From the NCBI RefSeq assembly GCF_023008405.1, contig NZ_CP095376.1, positions 6,118,501-6,182,500 of the forward strand: DNA of 64,000 bases, given 5' to 3'. Shown in pieces: positions 1,739 to 25,613 of the stretch. Within the stretch, counting starts at the first letter, position 1; each line of letters begins with the position of its first letter. Both the position numbers and the translations under genes were made by a program. Source of the stretch: Amycolatopsis sp. FBCC-B4732 (GTDB taxonomy: Bacteria > Actinomycetota > Actinomycetes > Mycobacteriales > Pseudonocardiaceae). Under the pieces are notes generated by a model. It ran no database searches, was not told where the DNA came from, and saw nothing but the letters and a program-made list of their open reading frames with translations.

Positions 1739-1766
1739 TTGTCCACAACGCCTCCGGTTATCCACA
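1739..1766 (+). other. Two tandem DnaA boxes
   Basis: TTGTCCACA (1739-1747) and TTATCCACA (1758-1766) both match the DnaA-box consensus TTRTCCACA and lie in the same orientation, 10 bp apart, in the intergenic region between rpsB and the M23 peptidase gene. TTGTCCACA is the form preferred in high-GC actinobacteria. Binding is inferred. Another TTGTCCACA (complement) occurs at 8751-8759 in the other large gene-less stretch. Confidence 0.5.
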
Positions 1767-1816
1767 GATTCACCGACGACCTCCCACGGCGGCCGCGGGT
1801 GCCGCAGGCTGGAGCC

Positions 1817-3115
1817 ATGGAGTCGATCATGCGTTTCCGGCACTGGCTGCCGGGGTGGGCAGGAGTGGTGTTCGTGCTGGTCGCGGCGGTGTCCGCGGGA
1901 TTGGGAGGTGCGGCTGGGACGGCTTTGGCGCCGGCCCGGGAGCCGGTTTCGGCGGGGCCCGAAACGGTGGTGACGGCCTCGGCGGTGGTGGCGTCGGAGC
2001 TGGGGATAGGTGGCGAGACGGCCGCTGATTTGGGGCCGCCGCCGACCTCCCCGCCGCTCGTCCCGGAGCTGCCCGCCGGGCGGTGGCCGCCGCCTTTGGG
2101 AGCCCCGCCGGCGGGGTCCCGATTGCTCGCACCGGGCCGCACCGAGACGCAGCCGGCTGTGTCGGCGGAGTCGCCATCGGCGGCGCCACGACTGCTCACG
2201 CGGGGCCGCACCGAAGCTCGGCTGGCTGCCCCCGCAGAGTCGTCGTCGGCGCGGTCACGGCCGCTCGCGCGGGGCCCCGCCGAGGCTCGGCCAGCTGCCC
2301 CCGCAGAGTCGCCATCGGCGGGGCCACGACTGCTCGCGCAAGCCCGCACCGAAGCTCGGCCAGCTGCCTCCGCAGAGTCGTCGTCGGCGGGGTCACGGTT
2401 ACTCGCACCTGGCCGCGCCGAAGCTCGGCCAGCTGCCCCGCCGGCGTTCCGGTCGGCACCACCACGACCGGCCGGACCGGCCCCCTCACCGGCCGCCATG
2501 CCGGTGTTCCCGTCGGCGGTGCCAAGACCACCCGAACCGGCGTCCGCCACGGCCGCGGCCGCCCTGGCGAAGTTCGCGAGCGGGCCCCCGCCGGCTCCCT
2601 CCTGGGCGAGCGCACTCATGGCCGTCTCGAATCCCGCCGCGGCGATCCGGGCCGATACCCCAGGGGCGTGGTCCGCGCCGGATGTGCGGCAGCCGCGGCT
2701 GTCCTGGCCGTTATCACCCGTTCCGGTGGTGGCGAAGTACTTCGACGCCCCCGAAACGCCCTACGGCGCCGGGCACCGCGGGGTCGACCTGGCCGCCGTG
2801 CCCGGGCAGGAGGTGCTCGCGGCCGATGCGGGCGTGGTCGTGTTCGTCGGGCCGGTGGGCGGGCGGACCGTCATCTCCGTCGACCACGACGGCGGGTTGC
2901 GCACCACCTACGAGCCCATCGCGCCGAAGGTGGCCGTCGGTGAGCAGGTCTACCGGGGGCAGGTGCTCGGGACCGTCCTCGCCGGGCACCCCGGCTGCCT
3001 GCTGGCGGCCTGCCTGCACTGGGGCGTGCGGCGGGGCGACGAGTACGTCGATCCCCTGGCCCTGACCGGCGAAGTGGGCGAATACCGGCTCAAGGCGTGG
3101 GGAGGTGATCGATGA
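1817..3115 (+). CDS. Secreted or membrane-anchored M23 (LytM) peptidase with Pro/Ala-rich repeats
   Basis: Predicted cell-wall endopeptidase of 432 aa. An N-terminal hydrophobic segment (about residues 13-38) acts as signal peptide or anchor. A long Ala/Pro/Arg-rich linker follows, containing five 23-residue repeats (residues 102-216), and then a C-terminal LytM domain with HRGVDLA (H320, D324) and LHWG (H401), the zinc ligands of M23 enzymes. So the active-site set looks complete. ATG 1817 is chosen over the TTG at 1739, which lies inside a DnaA box, and over ATG 1829. Its stop abuts the convergent whiG stop with no gap. Location between whiG and rpsB is conserved in actinobacteria. Confidence 0.88.
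2120..2464 (+). repeat. Five 69-bp in-frame tandem repeats in the M23 peptidase linker
   Basis: Five consecutive units of 23 codons, each close to [23 protein letters not shown]. The units keep frame and length while the residues vary, giving a flexible, probably wall-spanning spacer. Copy number could vary between strains. Confidence 0.85.
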
Positions 3116-5157: not shown

Positions 5158-6747
5158 TCACGAGCTTTCCCTCCGCCGTCGCCACCCGGCTTCCCCGCGG
5201 ACGGCGAATCCGTCGATCTCCAGTGCCGGCAGCAAGGCCCGCACCCGCCGCAGCGGGATGCCGGCTTCGACCGCGATCTCCGCGTCGGACCGGTCCGCGC
5301 GCACTACGAGTGCCTCGTAGGTGCGCAGTGCTTCGGGGCCCAGCCGGTCGGTGGACCGCTTCTGCCGGCCGGACGCGGTGTCCTCGGCGATGCCGAAGTG
5401 GCCGACCGTCTCGAGGACCTGGTCGATCGTCGAGACCAGCGTCGCCCGCGAGTCACGGATCAGCTCGTGGCAGCCGATGGACATCGCGGACGAGATCGGT
5501 CCGGGCAACGCCATCACGATCTTGCCGAAGGCACCGGCGGTGCTCGCGGTGTTGCGTGCGCCGCTGCGCCGGCCGGCTTCGACCACCACGGTGCCCTCGG
5601 TGAGGGCGGCGATGAGCCGGTTGCGGACGAGGAAGCGGTGCCGCGCCGGCGGGGTGCCGGGCGGGTACTCGCTGACGACCGCGCCACCGGACCGCGCGAT
5701 CCGGTTCAGCAGCCCGACGTGGCCGGCCGGATAACCGGCGTCGACGGCACAGCCGAGCACCGCGACGGTGACCCCGTCGGCGGCGAGCGCACCGCGGTGC
5801 GCCGCCCCGTCGATGCCGTACGCCGCGCCCGAGAACACCGGCACGCCCCGGCCGGCCAGCCCGTAGGCGAGTTCGGCGGCGTGGTGTTCGCCGTACTCGG
5901 TGGCCGAGCGGGCCCCGACGATGGCCACGGCCCGATCGGTGGCGGTGCCGAGCGCGACCTCGCCGGACACCCACAACGCCAGCGGCGGCACGGCTTCGGC
6001 CACCCCGCGCAGCGCGGCTTGGTCGAGGGCGAGCAGCGGCCAGGCGGGCCACTCGTCGTCCTCAGGCATGACCAGCCGGGCGCCGACTTCGGCGGCGCGG
6101 GCGAAGTCCTGGGCGACCAGGTTGTAATCCCGCCGGGCTTCGGTCGCCTTCAGCACCTCCGGCGGGCAGTCGCCGGCGCGGACCCGTCTGGCGGCCGCGA
6201 TCGGTCCGTGCTCGGCCACGAAGGCAATTAGGGCGGGCGCCGGTGGTTCGGCTACCCGCAGGAGGTACGCGCGGGCCTGGCGGATCTCGTCGGGGTGCTT
6301 GCCCGCACCCGCTTGGCGAAGTCCGGGGCTCGGGCCTCCTGCTCCGGGACGGTCGGTGCGCGGCCCGCCACCTGCTTGTGGAAGCTCGGCGCTCGAGCCG
6401 CCATCCGCCTGCGGAAGATCGACGCTCGCACCATCAAGCTCCGGGTTCGTGCCGCCACCTGCTTGCGGAAGCTCGGTGCTCGAGCCGCTGCCCGCCCGCG
6501 GGAGGCCGGTAGTCGGGCCGCCACTCTCCCGGGAGGGCTCGGGGCTCGGGCCAACGGCCGCCCGCGGGAGGTCGATGCTCGGGCCGCAGCCCTCCCGGGA
6601 AAGCTCGGGGCTCGGGCCAACGGCCACTCGGGGAAGCTCGGGGCTCGGGCCAACCGCCGCTCGGGGGAGCTCGGTGCTCGGGTTCCCGCCCACTCGCGGG
6701 AGTTCCGGGCGTGCGCCACCATTTGACTGCGGGAGTTCGGTTGTCAT
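5158..6747 (-). CDS. dprA: DNA-processing protein DprA with a repeat-rich N-terminal extension
   Basis: Rossmann-fold protein that loads RecA on incoming single-stranded DNA during transformation; 529 aa against about 300-400 for most homologues. The start ATG overlaps the comM stop in an ATGA, which fixes the start. Residues 4-152 consist of about 14 undecapeptide repeats (consensus E-L-P-R-A-G-G-G-P-S-P). The DprA core follows, with [10 protein letters not shown], the [11 protein letters not shown] loop, RNRLIAALT and [11 protein letters not shown], and a C-terminal winged-helix-like segment. It is the third gene of yraN-comM-dprA, a DNA-uptake operon. The extension looks disordered and its role is unknown. 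Confidence 0.93.
6292..6738 (-). repeat. About fourteen 33-bp repeats coding an undecapeptide in dprA
   Basis: Tandem units of 11 codons such as [33 protein letters not shown] and [11 protein letters not shown]; one unit is shortened to 7 residues and one to 10. Frame is kept throughout. The periodicity makes repeat-like shadow reading frames on the opposite strand. Slippage or unequal recombination is the likely origin. Confidence 0.9.
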
Positions 6748-23088: not shown

Positions 23089-23835
23089 ATGGGGGCACGA
23101 TTCACCGGCAAGGTCGTCCTGGTGACGGGCGGCGGTTCGGGCATCGGGCGGGAGACGGCGCGGGCGTTCGCGGCCGAGGGCGCGACGGTGGTCGTCGCCG
23201 GGCGCGACGAGCAGCGGCTGGCGGCCGTGGTGCAGGAGATCGGCGGCGACGCGGTGACGGTGGACGTCACCGACCCGGCGGACGTGGCGCGGATGGTCGA
23301 GACGATCGTCGCGCGGCACGGCGGGCTGGACGTCGCGGTCAACAACGCGGGCATCCTCGGGTCGCCGGCGCCGGCCGCGGACCTCGACGAGGACGGCTTC
23401 GGCGCGGTGCTGGCCACGAACGTCACCGGGACGTGGCTGTGCCTGAAGCACGAGGTCGCGCACATGCGGGCGCACGGCGGCGGCGCGATCGTCAACATCG
23501 CGTCGAACATCGGCGCGCACGGGCGGCTGCCGAACATGGCGGCCTACGCGGCGTCGAAGGCCGCGGTGAGCGCGCTGACCCGCACGGCGGCGCGCGACCA
23601 CATCGGCGAGGGGGTCCGCATCAACGCGGTCAGCCCGGGCGCGACGGACACCGGGATGTCGTTGCGCCCCGGCGAGACGGACGCCGATCGCGCCGAGCGG
23701 GTGAAGGGCGCGATCCCGCTGGGCCGGGTGGGTGCCACCGCCGAGGTGGCGGCCGCGGTGCTGTGGCTGGCTTCGGACGAAGCGGCCTTCACCGTCGGGC
23801 ACGACCTGGTGGTCGACGGCGGCGTGACCGCCTGA
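23089..23835 (+). CDS. Short-chain dehydrogenase/reductase
   Basis: 248-aa classical SDR with NAD(P)H-binding TGGGSGIG (about residues 14-21), NNAG, the catalytic Ser in IVNIASN, YAASK (Tyr and Lys) and the PG motif after NAVSPGATDTGM. Acidic/basic choice after strand 2 (VVAGRDEQR) suggests NADP(H). Substrate unknown. Lies 23 bp after a TetR gene, a frequent redox-stress or xenobiotic pairing. It converges on the micro-gene array at 23868-24192. Confidence 0.92.
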   Translation: MGARFTGKVVLVTGGGSGIGRETARAFAAEGATVVVAGRDEQRLAAVVQEIGGDAVTVDVTDPADVARMVETIVARHGGLDVAVNNAGILGSPAPAADLDEDGFGAVLATNVTGTWLCLKHEVAHMRAHGGGAIVNIASNIGAHGRLPNMAAYAASKAAVSALTRTAARDHIGEGVRINAVSPGATDTGMSLRPGETDADRAERVKGAIPLGRVGATAEVAAAVLWLASDEAAFTVGHDLVVDGGVTA

Positions 23836-23867: not shown

Positions 23868-23888
23868 TCAGGACTCACGGTTGCGCAC
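23868..23888 (-). CDS. Micro-ORF 6 of the array, (V/M)RNRES
   Basis: Last copy. GTG start, codons CGC AAC CGT GAG TCC TGA; GGAGGAG with a 6-nt spacer. CGT replaces CGC silently. A GC-rich, imperfectly self-complementary stretch (about 23838-23862) follows and could end transcription. Confidence 0.6.
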   Translation of the reverse strand: MRNRES

Positions 23889-23927
23889 GGGGCTCTCCTC
23901 CTGGGAGTGCGGACGGGTGGGCGGGGC

Positions 23928-23948
23928 TCACGACTCGCGGTTGCGCAC
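23928..23948 (-). CDS. Micro-ORF 5 of the array, (V/M)RNRES
   Basis: GTG start, codons CGC AAC CGC GAG TCG TGA; GAGAGGAG with a 7-nt spacer. Confidence 0.6.
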   Translation of the reverse strand: MRNRES

Positions 23949-23989
23949 GGGGCTGCTCCTCTCGGGCGTGCGGGCGGATGACTGGGGGT

Positions 23990-24010
23990 TCAGGACTCGC
24001 GGTTGCGCAC
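23990..24010 (-). CDS. Micro-ORF 4 of the array, (V/M)RNRES
   Basis: GTG start, codons CGC AAC CGC GAG TCC TGA; AGAGGAG with a 6-nt spacer. Confidence 0.6.
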   Translation of the reverse strand: MRNRES

Positions 24011-24048
24011 AGGGCTCTCCTCTCCGGCGTGCGGACGGGCGGCTCGGC

Positions 24049-24069
24049 TCACGACTCGCGGTTGCGCAC
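24049..24069 (-). CDS. Micro-ORF 3 of the array, (V/M)RNRES
   Basis: GTG start, codons CGC AAC CGC GAG TCG TGA; AAGGAG with a 7-nt spacer. TCG replaces TCC silently. Confidence 0.6.
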   Translation of the reverse strand: MRNRES

Positions 24070-24109
24070 GGCAGGACTCCTTCCGGACGTGCTGACGGAT
24101 GGCTGCGAT

Positions 24110-24130
24110 TCAGGACTCGCGATTGCGCAC
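24110..24130 (-). CDS. Micro-ORF 2 of the array, (V/M)RNRES
   Basis: GTG start, codons CGC AAT CGC GAG TCC TGA; AAGGAG with a 7-nt spacer. The AAT codon is a silent change from AAC of the other copies, rare in this GC-rich genome. Confidence 0.6.
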   Translation of the reverse strand: MRNRES

Positions 24131-24171
24131 GGCGCTACTCCTTCCGGGCGTACGAACAGGACAGTGGCGAG

Positions 24172-24192
24172 TCAGGATTCGCGGTTGCGCAT
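24172..24192 (-). CDS. Micro-ORF 1 of the array, MRNRES
   Basis: First in transcription order and the only copy with ATG. Codons ATG CGC AAC CGC GAA TCC TGA; Shine-Dalgarno GGGAGG 8 nt before the start. The GAA and TCC choices differ synonymously from some other copies. Confidence 0.6.
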   Translation of the reverse strand: MRNRES

Positions 24193-24302
24193 GACGGCGG
24201 CCTCCCTTCGCTGCTCCGATCGTGTGGCAATCGTCGATCGTCGCCGCCCGGTGTGGTGGGGTGGACGCGGATCGTCGGCTCACCCAGGGGAGTTGGACCG
24301 CC

Positions 24303-25613
24303 TTGAGTATGGACGGCGCCCGTCCGGCCGAACGCCACGCGGCCAGGATCCGAGGGGCGCTGAACCCTGCTCGCTGGACGCTCTGGCGGCAGCGCCGATC
24401 GCTCGTCTTCTACTGCTTCCTCGTCGAGTCCGTGGCGCTCGTGGCCACCGTCTGGACGGCCGCCGAAGTACCCGTGCGGACGTGGGACGTGGCCGTCCTC
24501 GGGGTGCTCGCCGGGCTCGGTGTGATGCAGGCCGAGCTGGGCCGTCAGGTCGAGCGCGTCCGGCGGCTGGTGTCGGACACCCCGCACATCAACCTGACGT
24601 CGGTCTGGACGTTCGCCGGCGTGCTGCTCCTGCCGCCCGCGCTCGTCACGGCGCTGATCGCCGTCCTCTACCTGCACCTGGCGACGCGCAGCCTCGCGCG
24701 GATCAAGCGCGTGCCGCCGTTCCGGACCACGCTGAACGCGACGCTCGTCGTCATCACCTGCTACGCGGCCGAGTTCGTGCTGAGCCGCCTCGGCGTCCCG
24801 GACATGTACACGGCGCTGACGTCGGGCTGGCGGGGCGTCACGGCCATCGCGCTCGCCGCGGCGGCGTACTTCCTGGTCTCGGCGATCACGATCCTGCCGG
24901 CGCTGACCATCACGACGCGCTCGGTGAAGGCGTTCTTCGGCGGCCTCGGCGACAACCTCCTCGAGGTCGCGACGCTGTGCCTGGGCCTGCTCACGGCGCT
25001 GACGCTGGCGACGCTGCCCGCGCTCGCCGTCGCGATCGTGCCGCCGCTGCTGGTGCTGCACCGGGCGGTGCTGATCAAGCAGCTGGAGATCGCGGCGACG
25101 ACCGACGAGAAGACCGGCCTGTTCAACACGACCGGCTGGCACGTGCTCGCTTCACGCGAGCTGGCACGCGCCCAGCGCAGCAAGCGGAGCACGTTCGGCG
25201 TGCTGATGATCGACCTCGACCACTTCAAGCTGATCAACGACGAGCACGGCCACCTGGCGGGCGACGCGGTGCTGCGCGCGGTCGCGGCGACGATCAAGAG
25301 CGCGGTCCGCGACTACGACTCGGTCGGCCGCTTCGGCGGCGAGGAGTTCGTGGTCCTGCTCCCGGAGATCGGCCCGGCGGCGGTCCTGGCGGTGGCGGAG
25401 CGCATCCGCTCGGCGATCGAGACGCTGAAGGTCGAGTACTTCGACGGCACGGCGTCCCGGGTGATCGGCGACCTGTCGGCATCGATCGGCGTGGCGACGT
25501 ACCCGGACGGCGGCACGGCCGTCGACCGCCTGCTGCAGGCCGCGGACAAGGCCCTGTACCGGGCCAAGGACGCGGGCCGCAACCAGGTGGTCGACGGCAC
25601 CGCGCCGGCTTAG
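24303..25613 (+). CDS. Membrane diguanylate cyclase (GGDEF)
   Basis: About 436 aa; makes c-di-GMP from GTP. Roughly six hydrophobic segments (to about residue 265) form an MASE-like membrane sensor. The GGDEF domain follows, with IDLDHFKLIND, the active-site loop GRFGGEEF, and RDYD five residues ahead of it, the RxxD inhibitory I-site; so the enzyme should be active and product-inhibited. Start: TTG 24303 after AGGGGAG (10-nt spacer); ATG 24309 is an alternative. The 3' end overlaps the convergent DUF262 gene by 4 bp. The micro-gene array lies directly upstream, transcribed away. Confidence 0.9.
   Translation: MSMDGARPAERHAARIRGALNPARWTLWRQRRSLVFYCFLVESVALVATVWTAAEVPVRTWDVAVLGVLAGLGVMQAELGRQVERVRRLVSDTPHINLTSVWTFAGVLLLPPALVTALIAVLYLHLATRSLARIKRVPPFRTTLNATLVVITCYAAEFVLSRLGVPDMYTALTSGWRGVTAIALAAAAYFLVSAITILPALTITTRSVKAFFGGLGDNLLEVATLCLGLLTALTLATLPALAVAIVPPLLVLHRAVLIKQLEIAATTDEKTGLFNTTGWHVLASRELARAQRSKRSTFGVLMIDLDHFKLINDEHGHLAGDAVLRAVAATIKSAVRDYDSVGRFGGEEFVVLLPEIGPAAVLAVAERIRSAIETLKVEYFDGTASRVIGDLSASIGVATYPDGGTAVDRLLQAADKALYRAKDAGRNQVVDGTAPA

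Follow-up and report, generated by a model that had tools for sequence, protein, structure and literature searches.

Why would a bacterial chromosome spell out the same six-residue peptide six times in a row, each time as a separate open reading frame (ORF)? The locus that raises this question lies in a 64,000-nucleotide (64 kb) stretch of the genome of Amycolatopsis sp. FBCC-B4732, hereafter the window, where RTGCGNAAYCGNGARTCNTGA has six exact matches on the minus strand between positions 23868 and 24192. Each of these micro-ORFs encodes MRNRES, starts with ATG (one unit) or GTG (five units), ends in TGA and is preceded by a Shine-Dalgarno (SD)-like GGAGG or AGGAG, and the units follow one another at a spacing of 59-62 nt. 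The peptide is constant while the codons differ silently (AAC/AAT, CGC/CGT, GAG/GAA and TCC/TCG). An initial annotation, made from the letters of the window, had pointed to this arrangement, and a reading of the six units bears it out. We consider it slightly better than an even bet (probability about 0.55) that the array specifies a short peptide ligand, which is exported and then sensed by the diguanylate cyclase (DGC) encoded next to it. The units are as follows.

24172..24192, minus strand: micro-ORF unit 1, ATG CGC AAC CGC GAA TCC TGA (MRNRES), SD GGGAGG
24110..24130, minus strand: micro-ORF unit 2, GTG CGC AAT CGC GAG TCC TGA, SD AAGGAG
24049..24069, minus strand: micro-ORF unit 3, GTG CGC AAC CGC GAG TCG TGA, SD AAGGAG
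23990..24010, minus strand: micro-ORF unit 4, GTG CGC AAC CGC GAG TCC TGA, SD GAGAGGAG
23928..23948, minus strand: micro-ORF unit 5, GTG CGC AAC CGC GAG TCG TGA, SD GAGAGGAG
23868..23888, minus strand: micro-ORF unit 6, GTG CGC AAC CGT GAG TCC TGA, SD AGGAGGAG

The array stands out from its surroundings. Across the whole 10.19 Mb genome, RTGCGNAAYCGNGARTCNTGA matches the six window units only, and a reversed control pattern gives 0 matches. Both strands of the window hold 12 SD-preceded ORFs of 5-7 aa, six of which are the array units; besides the array, no identical pair of such ORFs lies within 200 nt.

Is the peptide itself under selection? Exact matches to the MRNRES pattern occur in 26 of 80 Amycolatopsis genomes (177 units, 4-11 per genome; reversed control 0). 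We analysed one locus per genome, giving 26 loci and 172 units; five units of G051, whose array is split across two contigs, lie on the other contig and were left out. The counting pattern admits silent variants only and is therefore circular by itself, so the unbiased check is a rescan of the 26 loci that tolerates up to 6 mismatches. It yielded two extra matches, a chance overlap and a unit whose start had changed from GTG to GTT (G039, L015, in an otherwise intact array), and no replacement variant of MRNRES. Because only this start-lost unit was added beyond the chance overlap, 172 of 173 units encode exactly MRNRES. Third codon positions varied at 144 of 860 sites (172 units, codons 2-6), first and second positions at 0 of 1720. 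Start codons were ATG in 59 units and GTG in 113; in 164 of the 172, the distance between SD sequence and start was 5-10 nt. The spacers are nearly all different (144 distinct among 146), and the unit intervals, 59 nt and up, occupy all three frames. In G062, whose DGC is 68% identical to that of the window, MRNRES is retained with serine encoded by AGC in place of TCN. The conservative change MRNRDS is found in one unit each of G008, G078 and A. vastitatis (L045). Selection on the peptide sequence is well supported by this codon-level pattern. The initial annotation had inferred selection for translation of a six-residue peptide and had proposed counting silent against replacement changes in relatives; the inference stands, the changes falling at third positions and the start codon only, with a single lost start.

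The family extends well beyond the genus. A pattern allowing one mismatch matched 65 of 390 Pseudonocardiaceae genomes (2 matches for the reversed control) and also returned MRNREY pairs in one genus and MRNREW, as single units, in another; the matches at L115, L116 and L128-L130, at sites without an SD sequence, were set aside as chance. Anchoring the search on the SD sequence (MRNR[DE]x) gave 78 of the 390 genomes in 11 of 46 genera, the matches in genera g22, g24, g25 and g41-g46 being counted without inspection, and 0 for the reversed control. Among 394 class-wide genomes the same pattern matched twice only, in the window's genome and in one relative of the same family. Every one of the 29 loci retrieved by the family search (L202-L230), and likewise each of three more SD-anchored matches (L360-L362), has its micro-ORFs diverging from a relative of the window's GGDEF gene. 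The initial annotation saw the array but neither its linkage to DGC and transporter genes nor the wide family.

Different DGC paralogues are accompanied by different peptides. Upstream of Amycolatopsis paralogues we read MRNRET, MRNRDS, MSRDN, MRNREN, MCGRDN, MRDRGN, MSDRGN, MRNRDN, MRTREG, MNGRED, MRGIEY, MRNKDL, MGNKDW, MRGRDN, MRSRDN, MRSKEQ and MAGRDQ. The loci behind these counts, a first set of 20 and a further 40, were hand-picked from DGC-homologue matches to cover groups and are not a random sample. A micro-ORF of 5-8 aa lies on the divergent strand in 31 of the 40 (L250 doubtful) and on the other strand in 3 of 40; the corresponding numbers for the first 20 are 13 and 1. MAGRDQ, carried by the group L256-L259, L261, L266 and L270, was missed by a narrower SD filter and found with a wider one, which revealed no micro-ORFs in the remaining paralogue groups that lack them. 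Stops are mostly TGA, with TAG in MRNRET and TAA in L272. Within each of the genomes G000, G058, G062 and G491, no peptide is shared between the DGC loci seen. Peptide and N-terminal DGC domain co-vary, and in genus g8 DGCs 69-73% identical to the MRNREW-linked reference go with MRNRDM. With its related DGCs (about 72% identical) that pair with either MRNREW or MRNRDM, the g8 set (L213-L230) is natural material for mapping the DGC residues that govern peptide specificity.

The window's own genome has five loci that pair a peptide with a DGC, and no two of them use the same peptide. The four additional loci, all of the order MFS-peptide-DGC, where MFS denotes a major facilitator superfamily transporter gene, are listed here.

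Window-genome locus: one unit, peptide MRGKEQ
Window-genome locus: MSDKGW (4 units) with MRDKGW (1 unit)
Window-genome locus: MTNRDL/MRNRDL/MANRDL, 3 units, one with a TTG start
G000:C1:410821-411078 (L356:1572-1829), plus strand: an ORF of 85 codons (85 aa) with seven PTDWT repeats and basic linkers, flanked by an MFS gene on one side and a member of the same DGC family on the other

The PTDWT locus has no divergent micro-ORF. Six homologues of its repeat ORF (P0121-P0126) carry 5-7 PTDW[TAS] repeats, and those with names are hypothetical proteins. Three other DGCs of the window's genome (at 6.92, 6.22 and 5.09 Mb) are accompanied by neither a micro-ORF nor a PTDWT-type ORF. Because one locus encodes its repeats within a single ORF, the selected entity seems to be the peptide rather than the micro-ORF; the same multi-copy logic in one frame makes explanations based on ribosomes or ribosome-binding sites (RBS) unlikely.

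Beyond the micro-ORFs, and convergent with them where read, lies the MFS gene, assigned to Pfam MFS_1/MFS_3 in three examples. It is present in 18/18 loci of g8, 10/11 of g4, 23/27 of family f22 and 29/40 of the Amycolatopsis paralogue loci. In the latter, 29 loci have both MFS gene and micro-ORF, 9 neither, 2 the micro-ORF only and 0 the MFS gene only (p=2e-7). An MFS gene was seen in 9 of the 20 loci of the first set, which are short (1.4 kb; L174-L193), with L177, L178, L179 and L185 having a micro-ORF and no MFS gene in the stretch, and in 8 of 29 class-wide loci (L271-L299). Most relatives surveyed have an MFS_1/MFS_3 gene beside the micro-ORF, against 0/15 loci in the window clade. Where present, the MFS protein is likely to export the peptide. 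The immediate neighbourhood of the window's array is the following.

24309 (ATG; or 24222, GTG)..25613, plus strand: membrane diguanylate cyclase of 434 aa, the predicted peptide receptor
24193..24308, no strand assigned: divergent intergenic region from the array to the diguanylate cyclase, similar in the relatives compared and presumed to hold both promoters
23089..23835, plus strand: short-chain dehydrogenase/reductase (SDR) gene, facing the array convergently; many relatives have the MFS gene at the place that the SDR gene occupies in the window clade

The convergent SDR gene and the divergent GGDEF gene are as first annotated; the former is treated as a neighbour that probably plays no role in the mechanism. 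A scan for promoter and terminator consensus sequences found nothing at the array and no sigma70 consensus match in 24193..24308. No Rfam family matched in the window. The sequence that follows the array shows no stronger folding than shuffled versions of it (z -0.5 and +0.8). In genus g4 (L117-L127), a conserved block, TTGTCAGACTGGGCATTGTCCCC, lies about 85-110 nt before the first micro-ORF unit and is a possible promoter or operator.

What could the constant partner of these peptides be sensing? The window's DGC consists of an N-terminal transmembrane sensor (about residues 24-257) followed by a GGDEF domain (263-426) with a GGEEF signature and an RxxD (RDYD) I-site. Its PF00990 match (E 2.9e-44, 151 bits against a curated cut-off of 23.8) and intact GGEEF signature place it within the GGDEF family as a predicted diguanylate cyclase; residues 1-255 are 94-96% identical to proteins named from Amycolatopsis. 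Since a Foldseek search with the full-length model mainly probed the GGDEF portion, the N-terminal domain was folded alone. The best structural matches of its predicted fold are S-components of energy-coupling factor (ECF) transporters (RibU, BioY, ThiT and NikM/CbiM), the VIA list resting on Foldseek's own candidates. The sensor domain thus models like an S-component, as a resemblance of fold only, and no S-component Pfam family was matched at E<=1 by three DGCs. S-components bind their ligands from the outer side of the membrane.

The arrangement is not confined to the Pseudonocardiaceae: it recurs beside homologous membrane DGCs in Jiangellaceae-like genomes. Among class-wide DGC-homologue loci, 16 of 29 have divergent micro-ORFs (MRNII in L284 is doubtful) and 1 of 29 has one on the same strand; several of these are heptapeptide arrays, and many of the 13 loci without a divergent micro-ORF align in the GGDEF domain only. 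In family f22, 28 of 30 DGC loci have micro-ORFs, in up to 13 copies, against 2 of 30 loci for the same strand; of the exceptions, L309 has masked bases and L315 a single doubtful candidate. The nearest named proteins of f22 come from Jiangella and Phytoactinopolyspora, and a placement of the family in the Micromonosporaceae was dropped on the strength of these homologues. Here too the peptide follows the DGC type, MRDNTWT and its variants standing beside one DGC type and MRGNSWD or MRANSWD beside another. At L276, one of the class-wide loci, 13 copies of MRDTTW[S/R], with serine encoded by AGC, stand beside one DGC; because several spacers are identical, this array has probably been amplified recently.

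Searching the heptapeptide motif back in Amycolatopsis revealed it in 15 of 80 genomes (L364-L378), with a Jiangella-type DGC (57-62% identical) in 13 of the 15 fetched stretches and an MFS gene in all 15. These arrays have 2-19 units. Counting the 143 units that have Trp at positions 4-7, and excluding other SD-preceded ORFs at these loci, the core is MRDNNW in 138 and MQDNNW in 5. Past the Trp the peptides drift (TR, AR, IR, SR, DR, FR, as in MRDNNWTR). A fixed core followed by an unconstrained tail would be the pattern expected of a ligand that is recognized.

These observations can be joined into a mechanism. A single short transcript carrying several 6-codon ORFs, each initiated on its own, would yield many copies of (f)MRNRES; the array would then serve as a multi-copy gene whose product, a short peptide, is a ligand of the DGC encoded on the other side of the divergent intergenic region. 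The peptide would be exported by the MFS transporter where one is linked, and the N-terminal membrane domain of the DGC would sense it, probably from the outer face, changing the synthesis of cyclic di-GMP (c-di-GMP) by the GGDEF domain. Different DGC paralogues pair with different peptides, so that a single cell would run a number of insulated channels from peptide to c-di-GMP, of which the window's genome would have five. Linkage and co-variation in the genomes compared suggest that the peptide is a ligand; that the array is expressed, that the MFS protein exports its product, that binding is direct and in which direction it acts are steps that we infer. One genome speaks against the rule that the DGC loci of a genome do not share a peptide: G144 carries MRNRDM twice. 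The two stretches lie near contig ends, however, and show no difference over 3430 bases, and for this reason they are probably a single locus.

Of the four options that the initial annotation had offered, the evidence favours a peptide effector of which a single mRNA yields many copies, and the main contest is over where such a peptide would act. An unexported peptide could bind the DGC, or the MFS protein, from inside and report the state of translation or growth, with copy number setting the dose and the PTDWT protein providing multivalency. Inspection by eye shows no secretion signals, the PTDWT precursor with its basic linkers looks like an ordinary ORF for a soluble protein, and the MFS gene is missing from the locus in the window clade. 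Elsewhere, however, MFS linkage is strong (all 29 MFS-positive paralogue loci have a micro-ORF), and proteins with the fold that the sensor resembles take their ligands from outside, although for the DGC only a resemblance is at hand. We regard a cytosolic ligand as unlikely, if worth serious consideration.

Alternatively, the micro-ORFs could be precursors of an exported bioactive peptide, modified or not, of the microcin C type, with the MFS protein as exporter and the DGC serving regulation or immunity. Passages of PMC6495379 describe a 7-codon gene with a strong SD sequence and an export pump, and report that ORFs of 2-8 codons can be re-translated in vitro by the same ribosome without release. 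All microcin C precursors of that paper end in Asn, however, which most peptides found here lack: their last residues include S, T, Y, W, M, D, L, Q and R, although N does close some of them (among these MCGRDN, MSRDN, MRDRGN and MRDNNWN). A search of the window's genome for PF00899 (the ThiF/MccB family) gave four matches, all more than 240 kb from its five peptide loci, and the partner that recurs throughout is a DGC. A product of this type appears quite improbable.

Still less credence is due to a device in which translation matters and its product does not, such as an RBS or ribosome sponge, or a sensor of stalling or peptidyl-tRNA drop-off. Strong tandem SD sequences, very short ORFs and mostly TGA stops would suit it. 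Paralogues nevertheless retain distinct, specific peptides, serine codons switch from TCN to AGC with the peptide unchanged, repeats inside one ORF follow the same logic, and the downstream gene is convergent where read. Apart from the serine codons, these points also count against the RNA- or ribosome-titration, toxic-peptide and leader options of the initial annotation. A leader or attenuator would precede a co-directional gene, but what lies downstream, the SDR gene in the window and the MFS gene in the relatives read, is convergent with the array; and the peptides, at 5-8 aa, are hydrophilic or charged rather than hydrophobic and membrane-acting like type I toxins. Finally, if a DNA-binding protein recognized the repeats as sites in the DGC promoter region and the ORFs were fortuitous, this would account for tandem repeats between divergent genes, but codon-level conservation brings this idea close to refuted, since variation is limited to silent positions and the start codon, orientation and SD sequences are retained, opposite-strand micro-ORFs are rare (3/40 against 31/40) and unit intervals are irregular (59 nt up).

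If an exported ligand sensed by the adjacent DGC is indeed what the array encodes, actinomycete diguanylate cyclases would gain specific input signals in the form of short peptides that can be read from genomes and tested as synthetic peptides. c-di-GMP is reported to control streptomycete development, and Amycolatopsis includes antibiotic producers, in which defined peptides that move c-di-GMP could serve as switches. Genes of 6-7 codons, unlisted by gene finders, can stay conserved as arrays across orders. According to passages of the review PMC7641383, the signals that drive synthesis and breakdown of such messengers are still open. More tentatively, and at somewhat less than even odds, the loci could represent a new class of cell-cell signalling: unprocessed ribosomal peptides of 5-8 residues, encoded by tandem micro-genes (up to 19) or repeat polyproteins, exported by dedicated MFS transporters and perceived by S-component-type receptors fused to a DGC, with several orthogonal channels per genome setting c-di-GMP.

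Two other repeats in the window lie apart from the array. At 2109-2439, a 69-bp tandem repeat of about 4.8 copies encodes in-frame 23-aa repeats, the minus strand also being open in one frame; it lies in the linker of an apparent M23-peptidase-type protein (ORF 1739-3115, plus strand; named by eye). At 6365-6710, tandem repeats of 33/66 bp, upstream of a DprA-like region (named by eye), leave the minus strand open as 11-aa PELPRxxxGPS-type repeats.

How does the array compare with known systems? In the Rgg/SHP, Rap/Phr and AgrC/AIP systems of Firmicutes, a small peptide gene stands beside its receptor gene, shp often being divergent from rgg, and paralogues have cognate peptides. The loci described here share this adjacency and pairing. 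The Firmicutes precursors, in contrast, are longer and carry export or processing signals, their receptors are not known to be diguanylate cyclases, and we know of no 6-codon tandem arrays among them. With ECF S-components the DGC shares the predicted fold of its membrane domain; it differs in being fused to GGDEF through a helix, in an extra N-terminal helix and in its lack of an S-component Pfam match. The PTDWT precursor, with seven copies of a short motif and basic linkers, is reminiscent of yeast alpha-factor-type precursors, but it is bacterial, has no visible signal peptide and stands as an alternative to a micro-ORF array. No description of the system was found in open-licence PMC papers, including passages of PMC6429828 and PMC7641383, which does not imply absence from print. 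Closest is microcin C: in passages of PMC6495379, mccA (MRTGNAN) has about 7 codons and a strong SD sequence, its peptide starts with fMet-Arg, and an exporter gene is linked to it. The mccA, MccB and MccC pump system differs from the present loci, which have many tandem copies and a membrane diguanylate cyclase as constant partner. The micropeptide array with its DGC looks like an undescribed peptide-signal system; among known ones, the heptapeptide gene of microcin C and its pump come nearest.
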